Below are positions 2,064 to 36,455 of a stretch of 64,000 nt of DNA, in pieces. The notes beneath the pieces are model-generated. The model was given only the letters and a program-made list of their open reading frames with translations, made no database searches and was not told the origin of the DNA. Position numbers and translations under genes: made by a program. Each line of letters begins with the position of its first letter. The first letter of the stretch is position 1. The stretch is from Eggerthellaceae bacterium (lineage in GTDB: Bacteria > Actinomycetota > Coriobacteriia > Coriobacteriales > Eggerthellaceae): contig JAUNGO010000001.1 in the NCBI GenBank assembly GCA_030524475.1, forward strand, positions 1 to 64,000. Direction: 5' to 3'.

Positions 2064-2723
2064 ATGAGCAGAATGGCTATCTTAGTCGACGGCGCATTTT
2101 ATCTCAAGCGTGCGAAGTCGTTGTTCGGACAGAAAAGCCCAGCTGACAGAGCTGAAGAACTCGTTCAGTATTGCAAGAAGCATACGGAACACGAAGGTGC
2201 TGAACTATACAGGATCTTCTATTACGACTGCGATCCCGTCGGGAAAAAGGCGTTTCACCCGCTTCTCCACAGAACGATAGATCTCAGCAAGACAGACGAC
2301 TATAAATGGAAGATGGAGTTCTTTGGCGAGATCGCGCGAAAGAGAAAGTTAGCCGTGAGAAAAGGCGAGGCCCTCGACGGCTCCTGTGAATACGTCTTGA
2401 AGCGGGAAGTGGCGAGAGACCTAGTCGTCGGAAAGCGCACGACGGAAAGCCTTATCGAAAAGGATTTCGTCTTGGACGTTCAGCAGAAGGGAGTCGATGT
2501 TCGCATCGGGCTTGACTTGGCGCTCATCTCCCATGAGAAGTTCGCCGACCAAATCGTTCTCATAACTGGAGACAGCGATTTCGTTCCCGCCGCCAAATAC
2601 GCTAGGCGGCACGGAATCGATTTCATCATAGATCCGATGTGGCACAACTTCAGAGATGAACTCGGCGTTCACGTAGACGGCATGTACACCCCATGCCCAA
2701 ATCCAAAGAGAAAGAAAAGGTAA
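2064..2723 (+). CDS. NYN-domain (LabA/PIN-like) ribonuclease
   Basis: A stand-alone NYN-domain protein of 219 residues, a PIN-like fold with metal-dependent RNase chemistry in characterised members. The acidic residues are visible: AILVDGAFY near residue 9, KGVDVRIGLDLALIS near 150 and VLITGDSDFVPAAKYARR near 175. The end is basic (NPKRKKR), as expected for nucleic-acid contact. A GGGGGAG ribosome site lies 4 bases before the ATG. Base composition is near 50% GC, well below the flanking genes, which suggests transfer. The gene is isolated and bracketed by two family E palindromes. Its target is unknown; RNA decay, defence or a toxin role are possible. Confidence 0.8.
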   Translation: MSRMAILVDGAFYLKRAKSLFGQKSPADRAEELVQYCKKHTEHEGAELYRIFYYDCDPVGKKAFHPLLHRTIDLSKTDDYKWKMEFFGEIARKRKLAVRKGEALDGSCEYVLKREVARDLVVGKRTTESLIEKDFVLDVQQKGVDVRIGLDLALISHEKFADQIVLITGDSDFVPAAKYARRHGIDFIIDPMWHNFRDELGVHVDGMYTPCPNPKRKKR

Positions 2724-4322: not shown

Positions 4323-4421
4323 CGGGTGAATTTGGGGAAAGGAGGGGCGAGGGCGAACATTCGCCACCCCGTTCCCGTGATACAATCACCCGCAACGCCC
4401 AACCGACCGAAAGGCCAAACA

Positions 4422-5393
4422 ATGTCCCCCAAGTCCACTAACTCTCTCATGAAACATCTTCGAGATCAGGGGGTCTCCATCGGCGGCTCGACACAAAAGC
4501 GGAAGCTTAGGAATATCGGTTACTACCATGGCTACAAAGGATTCAGAGTTTTAGGTGACTCCTCAAAAAGACTTCCGATCACCGATTTCGGTCAAATCGT
4601 ATCTCTCCATGCCTTGGATACGCAAATCAAGACGCTGCTTTATCCGCACATAATGACAATCGAAACCGCGTTAAAAAATTACACGCTCGAGTCCGTGCTC
4701 AATCACGCCAAAAGCGAGGACTTCGATGAAATATACAAAACCTGCCTAACGGCATACAGGGGATACCGCCCCGGTACGGCAGACTACAAAAAATCCTGGG
4801 CAAACAGGCTCAGGCTGAGACAAACCGTCGACGGGCTGATCTCGCGCGAGCAGGATAAAAGACCGTTTTTTAAGCACTTCCGCGATCAGGGGAGAGCAAT
4901 CCCGATATGGGCCATCTTCGAAGCCATGACCCTAGGGGAATTCGGCAATTTCTATGCCTGCCTCGATCGCCCCGTCAAAAGCGCAATCGTTGCCGACCTC
5001 GGAATGCCCTCCCAGTACGACTCGGAGGCCCTTCTTCTTTCCGTCATCTTCTCGCTTAAGGATTTGAGAAACGCTATCGCCCACAACGCCATTGTCTCGG
5101 ACGTGCGTTTCAAGTCGGGAGGCATATCGGGCCGTGTCGGAAAACTTCTGAAAAGCGAGACAGGGATCGATTCGATCAATTTCTCCGATATCACGGACTA
5201 CGTCATCCTAATCGTCTATCTTCTCAGCCTTTTCAGGTTACCAAAGACCGACAGAAAAAGGCTTATCTCGGATTACGAGGCAATTCTCCTGAAATACAAA
5301 AGAGAACTTCCCCTTGAAATCTACGGGAGGCTTGTTCGCACCGAAACCTCCAACAAACTCGACACGCTCAAGAAATATGTAACAAAATCCTGA
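4422..5393 (+). CDS. AbiF/AbiD-type (Abi_2) HEPN ribonuclease, probable toxin of an RNA-antitoxin or phage-abortive system
   Basis: A 323-residue Abi_2 family protein. The N-terminus has the family pattern LMKHLRDQGVSIGG, KLRNIGYYHGYKGF and ITDFGQIVSLHALDTQIKTL. The HEPN motif is RNAIAHN (R-x4-H), the predicted RNase active site, following LLSVIFSLKDL. Families with this motif include phage-abortive-infection proteins. The ATG with GAAAGG upstream was chosen over a longer frame that crosses the promoter. GC is close to 50%, below the neighbours, so transfer is likely. A compact RNA with its own terminator lies immediately downstream, as in abiF loci described by comparative genomics. Confidence 0.85.
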   Translation: MSPKSTNSLMKHLRDQGVSIGGSTQKRKLRNIGYYHGYKGFRVLGDSSKRLPITDFGQIVSLHALDTQIKTLLYPHIMTIETALKNYTLESVLNHAKSEDFDEIYKTCLTAYRGYRPGTADYKKSWANRLRLRQTVDGLISREQDKRPFFKHFRDQGRAIPIWAIFEAMTLGEFGNFYACLDRPVKSAIVADLGMPSQYDSEALLLSVIFSLKDLRNAIAHNAIVSDVRFKSGGISGRVGKLLKSETGIDSINFSDITDYVILIVYLLSLFRLPKTDRKRLISDYEAILLKYKRELPLEIYGRLVRTETSNKLDTLKKYVTKS

Positions 5394-5422
5394 AAACCGG
5401 AGGATTGTGCTAAACTGTGTTT

Positions 5423-5487
5423 GCAATAGCGGTGGAAGCCTTCGGGTGACACCTGGAAAGGTCCGACAGGTTCGGGCCTTTCTTTTT
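5423..5487 (+). ncRNA. abiF-type RNA motif, candidate RNA antitoxin, with its own terminator
   Basis: Starting 30 bases after the Abi stop, an extended -10 (TGCTAAACT) precedes a short RNA. It contains GGTG...CACC (5431-5453) enclosing GAAG/CTTC, then GGAAAGG/CCTTTC with an inner CCGA/TCGG helix and a T5 tail, a canonical terminator. Outside it AAACCGGA near 5394 and TCCGGTTT near 5489 can also pair. From family knowledge, abiF-like HEPN genes are followed by a conserved small RNA (the abiF RNA motif), proposed to restrain the protein. Position and fold fit; I could not run a covariance model. Confidence 0.65.
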
Positions 5488-5533
5488 ATCCGGTTTATTG
5501 GGGTTAAGTTTCAGAAAGCGCACGTGGCGAACG

Positions 5534-36106: not shown

Positions 36107-36121
36107 GCGCGGTATGGATTC

Positions 36122-36362
36122 TGTTTCAGGGCGGGGTGAGATTCCCCACTGGCGGTAACCGACCCGGCGGCGCAACGCAACAACGTTCGCGCGGCAACGT
36201 GGCACGAAGCAACGTCAACCACGCAGCCGCACGGCGAGCGCAACGCGCGGCGGGGCGGAAGTCCGCGAGCCAAAGCGTGCGGCGGCGCACAACGCAACGC
36301 AGCACGCAGGTTGACTCCGGTGAAACTCCGGGACCAACGGTACAGTCCGGATGGAAGAGGCA
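36122..36362 (+). promoter_or_regulatory. FMN riboswitch (RFN element) with an expanded variable region
   Basis: Conserved RFN blocks are present: TTCAGGGCGGGGTGAGATTC, CCCACTGGCGGTAA, GTCCGCGAGC, GACTCCGGTGAAACTCCGGG and ACGGTACAGTCCGGATGGAA. Between the first and third blocks lies about 90 bases of GC-rich sequence made of degenerate AACGCAAC/GCAACG repeats, so the element is about 240 rather than 130-150 bases. It is followed by an intrinsic terminator and ribU, so high FMN should stop transcription of the riboflavin importer. Confidence 0.95.
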
Positions 36363-36455
36363 GAGTTCGCACGACATGGTGCCCCGCGCGGCACGGCCGT
36401 TGGCATTCCCGCCAACTCAACCCGTGCACGCAGCGCAGGCAACTTCGATCATGCG

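Follow-up and report, generated by a model that had tools for sequence, protein, structure and literature searches.

Introduction

Pairs of AbiF proteins and small RNAs have been proposed as the ancestors of Cas13 and its guide RNA. One such pair, PbAbiF with its ncRNA (PDB 8VZ6), is the subject of Zilberzwige-Tal et al. (2025), a study to which we refer as it is cited in PMC12373285 and PMC12737573. AbiF of Clostridioides difficile (AbiFCd) is toxic when expressed, in a manner that depends on its R and H residues, and the small RNA RCd22 neutralises it by direct binding (PMC12373285).

Here we describe a locus in a 64,000-nucleotide stretch of DNA from an Eggerthellaceae bacterium, which is referred to below as the window. 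Our reading, to which we give a probability of roughly 0.78, is that the locus is an AbiF system of the RNA-antitoxin (type III-like) kind, with an RNA of a new class.

Results

An AbiF-type HEPN protein is encoded in the window

The features of the locus, in window coordinates, are the following:

4378–4386, + strand: extended −10-like element of the toxin gene (TGA-TACAAT), 35 nt 5′ of the start codon; prediction only
4422–5393, + strand: Abi_2 / AbiD-F family HEPN protein of 323 aa, a putative RNase toxin, from Pfam, PADLOC and a fold match
5067–5084, + strand: HEPN catalytic motif R216-N-A-I-A-H221 (R-x4-H), intact, with R, N and H invariant in all aligned clade members
5408–5416, + strand: extended −10 promoter-like element of the RNA gene (TGC-TAAACT), 15 bases 3′ of the toxin stop
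5425–5487, + strand: small RNA of about 60 nt, a putative RNA antitoxin of a new family (models R1 and R2), conserved in two phyla, with compensatory changes and no Rfam match
5431–5453, + strand: hairpin 1, with a GGUG/CACC outer stem, a 3×2 internal loop, a 3-bp inner stem and a UUCG tetraloop, from covariation in 21 RNAs
5455–5487 (stem 5455–5483), + strand: hairpin 2, a predicted intrinsic terminator of 12 bp followed by a T run, from folding and from compensatory changes at three pairs

The ORF at 4422–5393 (+), whose stop codon occupies 5391–5393, matched Pfam Abi_2 with an E value of 1.2e-28 (101 bits against a cut-off of 25.6) and PADLOC AbiD with an E value of 1.5e-26. The initial annotation, made from the letters of the window, had described an HEPN toxin of the AbiD/F kind with an intact R-x4-H motif, and these matches, together with the invariance of RNAIAH in relatives, bear this out. 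It had also placed the GC content of the region below that of its neighbours, which was confirmed (46–55 % in the gene versus 64–71 % in the flanks). Homologous toxin genes likewise presented a TA-rich −10-like element about 30–40 nt ahead of the start.

An AlphaFold2 model of the protein, built from 16 sequences, was confident (pLDDT 87, pTM 0.86). When it was searched with Foldseek, the sole PDB match at E≤0.001 was 8VZ6, the PbAbiF dimer with its ncRNA (E 2.6e-5, probability 1.00, TM 0.62/0.66), and the same entry was reached by sequence with the clade profile (E 1.3e-8). Elsewhere in the window, an FMN riboswitch was found at 36118–36366 (+; 72.8 bits).

A conserved small RNA gene lies 3′ of the toxin gene

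On comparative sequence evidence, the RNA is a real, conserved gene, since its layout is kept in close homologs, its stems show compensatory base changes and it recurs across phyla. Within the window sequence alone, two terminators were found versus 2.0 expected and the promoter pattern was likewise no better than chance; the fold of 5421–5488, however, was beyond chance (−29.2 kcal/mol, z −3.6 versus shuffles). The promoter-like element consists of an extended −10 alone; no clear −35 accompanies it, and for want of one a sigma-70 scan was silent on it. In 18 of the 19 copies beside a toxin gene, TANNNT, mostly as TGNTANNNT, preceded the RNA at a short fixed distance, and the distance from the stop codon to the RNA, on the same strand, varied from 33 to 143 nt among them.

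The same block stood 3′ of the gene, in differing surroundings, at each of the nine close homologous loci (49–86 % protein identity; the window is one of the nine), which upholds the initial claim that a structured RNA, equipped with a promoter-like element and terminator of its own, lies at this place. When 10 RNAs were compared, all 18 pairs were kept in every sequence and both sides had changed at 5 pairs. Across 21 diverse toxin-adjacent RNAs, 96.6 % of the cells of hairpin 1 (7 pairs) were paired, as compared with 34–49 % in slid registers, and 17 cells were double-changed versus 5.0 in shuffles. A lack of covariation among homologous loci, which the initial annotation had named as evidence against itself, is thus clearly refuted, with compensatory changes in both hairpins. 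The terminator loop GAUGCGUC (UGCG tetraloop; window 5462–5476 and its equivalents) is conserved in most copies across phyla, beyond the need of a plain terminator; it differs in the window RNA and its two closest relatives, where it reads GACARGUUC.

Model R1, with weak matches counted, had hits in 23 of the 138 family genomes and 51 of the 398 class genomes. Strong matches, defined as those of at least 34 bits, numbered 47 in Coriobacteriia; weak ones (27–32 bits) mostly resembled ordinary terminators and were discarded. A protein profile search reached phage satellites, prophages, plasmids and viral contigs at 30–41 % identity, the named ones being Bacillota. On this side the loci consist of the gene followed by an extended −10, AAUNGNGG, a UUCG- or UNCG-capped hairpin and a terminator. 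Their RNA copies are too diverged for an exact pattern and were therefore found via the protein; a scan of viral contigs for the exact pattern of the Coriobacteriia RNA gave no match. The hairpin-only model R2 found copies outside its training set at loci such as L119, L130, L127, L106, L123 and, weakly, L126 (E 0.04), while the RNAs of L120 and L111/L134 were identified by eye. At L106/L110 (satellite phage Javan277) the hairpin runs straight into the T run and the second hairpin is missing; there the antitoxin-like hairpin may itself be the terminator.

The RNA is distinct from the Rfam abiF motif

The covariance model of the known abiF RNA motif, RF03085, gave no match at E≤10 in 1.5 kb of the window and none at E≤1 in 17 homologous loci, and no other Rfam family matched the window RNA. 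The identification of the RNA with the abiF motif, as proposed initially, thus fails: of the findings that the annotation had listed against itself, this one, no hit to the RNA model, was obtained.

The search was not blind, because it gave matches at other AbiF loci. RF03085 matched just upstream of a second Abi_2 gene in the source genome (G000:C53 55497–56051, L001; RNA at L001 1355–1388, +) with 35.2 bits against a cut-off of 37, and near L020 with 33.1 bits, slightly below the cut-off. On a plasmid of Phocaeicola massiliensis (L149), matches of 59.1 and 44.0 bits flanked a PbAbiF-like gene, one to either side, the RNAs lying at 1415–1451 and 2442–2501 and the downstream one having an enlarged loop. 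Near-cut-off matches were also obtained for the AbiF genes of two Acinetobacter plasmids (L150 and L151). These two genes lie directly 3′ of hsdS in type I restriction operons, and that of L151 precedes a helicase gene.

In the reverse direction, model R2 failed to recover the RF03085 RNAs. A PbAbiF fragment searched against viral contigs gave no match. One symR match, at L002 2908–2979, fell outside the finding and far under the cut-off and was rejected. Judged by these searches, the RNA class is new, absent from Rfam and distinct from RF03085, and both classes appear to be represented in the source genome, by one AbiF system each. Unnamed candidates from metagenomic RNA surveys, or the supplement of Zilberzwige-Tal et al. 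(2025), may nonetheless already include the new class.

The RNA is almost strictly paired with one protein clade

Among the 20 clade genes of Coriobacteriia, the RNA lay directly 3′ of 18, some of these 18 being fragmented by frameshifts; the remaining two were a gene with a shortened, degenerate hairpin in a similar layout (G306) and a broken gene without the RNA (G406). The RNA also adjoined 14 of 15 distinct phage, satellite, plasmid or viral-contig loci with enough flank. No RNA was visible beside the viral-contig clade gene of L132. At L119 it was found upstream of the toxin gene with its own −10-like element, indicating that the position of the RNA is not fixed and that it is not a mere 3′ end. 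Distant Abi_2 paralogs (L001, L003 and those in L013–L034) lacked the new RNA at any convincing score. The clade toxin gene of Enterococcus gilvus pCR1A (L114) has an in-frame stop beside an intact RNA.

In the protein tree, a long stem led to a clade (99/99) of the 27 new-RNA proteins, and the RF03085-associated proteins fell outside it. The window protein formed one clade (100/100) with those of Thermophilibacter provencensis (Atopobiaceae) and G320, and it was 86 % identical to the Thermophilibacter protein, from another family, versus about 58 % to the homolog in its own genus. The RNA variant with the inner stem GCC-UUCG-GGU/C and the loop GACARGUUC tracked this protein grouping across families, showing that the module and its RNA moved together by horizontal transfer. 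An empty insertion site was sought in two genomes of the same genus, where the two flanking genes proved to be on different contigs.

Many RNA copies are solitary

No Abi_2 gene lay directly upstream in 28 of the 47 strong matches of Coriobacteriia. By Pfam, the neighbours of these solitary RNAs, which mostly sit in defence islands, were for the greater part defence genes (HsdM, HsdS, RloB, GmrSD, DUF3800, NYN, PvuRts1I-like, AAA_21, YoeB and a phage integrase). One NYN-domain gene is directly 5′ of a solitary RNA in G343 (L067), and another is near the module in the window (2064–2723).

Many solitary RNAs keep the promoter-like element, hairpin and terminator, and 18 of the 28 hairpins were intact. 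Broken pairs made up 18 of 196 cells in solitary copies versus 2 of 133 in toxin-adjacent ones (P=0.004, with relatedness ignored). Remnants of the toxin C terminus, ~28 residues long in G099 and ~51 in G284, persist 5′ of the RNA, indicating that at least these two copies are leftovers of toxin loss. Abi_2 gave no match in 8 of the 41 strong-hit genomes, several assemblies being drafts; since some intact solitary RNAs are in genomes without Abi_2, the RNA may have another role. One solitary copy (L103, G134:C12, RNA at 2039–2097, −) separates hsdM from the convergently oriented hsdS of a type I restriction system, and Abi_2 has no match anywhere in that genome.

The RNA without the toxin is thus common and the intact toxin without the RNA is rare, which fits an antitoxin, as only the toxin could be safely lost. 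Solitary RNAs might even be working stand-alone antitoxins that guard the host or its defence island against AbiF on phages and plasmids, as anti-addiction or guard elements, a tentative idea that we regard as rather unlikely.

Discussion

We propose that the locus is a two-gene, toxin–antitoxin-like defence module. In its free state, the Abi_2 protein would act as an HEPN RNase, cleaving RNA and arresting growth. The RNA of about 60 nt would be a separate transcript, initiated at an extended −10 promoter of its own just 3′ of the gene. It would fold into a UUCG-capped hairpin and a terminator hairpin, and bind the HEPN dimer as an antitoxin that keeps the RNase inactive until the balance is upset, most probably by phage infection. 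We infer RNase toxicity, RNA–protein binding, inhibition, RNA excess and a phage trigger, and on our analysis the RNA most likely keeps the protein switched off, as RCd22 does in C. difficile (PMC12373285) and as is implied by the structure of PbAbiF. The antitoxin relation, already put forward in the initial annotation, is plausible in view of the fold match to PbAbiF-ncRNA and the experimental precedent (PMC12373285). Since RF03085 differs from the new RNA in both sequence and loop, the binding mode is not transferable from PbAbiF.

The pairing of RNA and protein would also suit a proto-Cas13 arrangement, in which the RNA, rather than inhibiting the HEPN protein, activates or directs it as a guide or cofactor, and the HEPN domains of AbiD/F do group with those of Cas13an (PMC12165695). 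However, conservation spans all ~60 nt, predicted start through terminator, which leaves no variable stretch for a guide, and those AbiF RNAs that have been characterised are neutralisers (PMC12373285); given the lack of variation in the RNA, we consider a guide role improbable. It is very improbable, in our judgement, that the toxin mRNA simply ends in this RNA, its terminator included, which would then act on message stability or readthrough. Its place on the same strand, 33–143 nt past the stop, and a second hairpin that is a terminator would agree with this, but the spacing of the −10-like element is fixed to the RNA and variable to the gene, hairpin 1 shows compensatory changes that no terminator needs, and the RNA is upstream at L119 and has many solitary copies with a promoter-like element and terminator of their own.

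Short complementary stretches of the RNA and the toxin mRNA leader in the window (CCUUCGGG with CCGAAAGG) raise the idea of an antisense, type I-like regulator that pairs with the leader; yet the duplex energy was not significant against shuffled leaders in six of six loci, the fraction of shuffles that did as well being 0.07–0.90, and we give this reading very little credence. We are just as sceptical that the module is inactive cargo and the RNA an unrelated small RNA common in defence islands. The 28 of 47 strong matches without an adjacent Abi_2 gene, most annotated ones being near restriction and toxin–antitoxin genes, point that way. Against it stand the near-constant adjacency to one protein clade in two phyla, the absence of the RNA at other Abi_2 genes and the toxin stumps 5′ of two solitary RNAs.

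Should a second RNA family indeed serve a distinct AbiF clade in both Actinomycetota and Bacillota, no fewer than two very dissimilar RNAs would have become partners of the AbiF fold. With two RNA partners it can be asked which protein–RNA contacts are essential and how exchangeable the RNA partner is, and such an exchange is a step required for crRNA to arise. The covariance models allow annotators to find systems now missed by Rfam, and the solitary copies raise the testable question of RNA antitoxins without toxins.

As compared with the known systems, the locus shares with PbAbiF the protein fold, the HEPN R-x4-H motif and a paired small RNA, while the proteins are only about 18 % identical and belong to separate, supported clades; the PbAbiF-like locus L149 has RF03085 RNAs on both sides and not the new RNA. 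Like AbiF–RCd22, it combines an Abi_2 toxin with a terminator-ended small RNA that bears a promoter, here a promoter-like element. RCd22, however, is upstream, is about 100–130 nt long, has the RF03085 motif twice and limits read-through into the gene (PMC12373285), whereas the window has one RNA of about 60 nt, of another family, downstream and with its own promoter-like element. The new RNA resembles RF03085 as a short AbiF-associated hairpin with an asymmetric internal loop and a T-run end, but the RF03085 consensus is CCCGCC..GCCUCUCAACGAUGCUCAAAUC..GGCGGGU and that of the new RNA is AAUNGCGGUG..UUCG..CACC. Neither a CRISPR array nor the variable, target-matching part of a Cas13-like guide RNA was seen, the whole RNA being conserved. 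Toxins of type III systems have the ToxN fold, and the fold of the window toxin is HEPN instead. Classical type III systems differ further in their tandem repeats before the toxin, in place of which the window has a single RNA copy in the genome, 3′ of the gene. With ToxIN, TenpIN and CptIN the locus would nevertheless share its central arrangement, an RNase toxin and an RNA antitoxin that acts on the protein.
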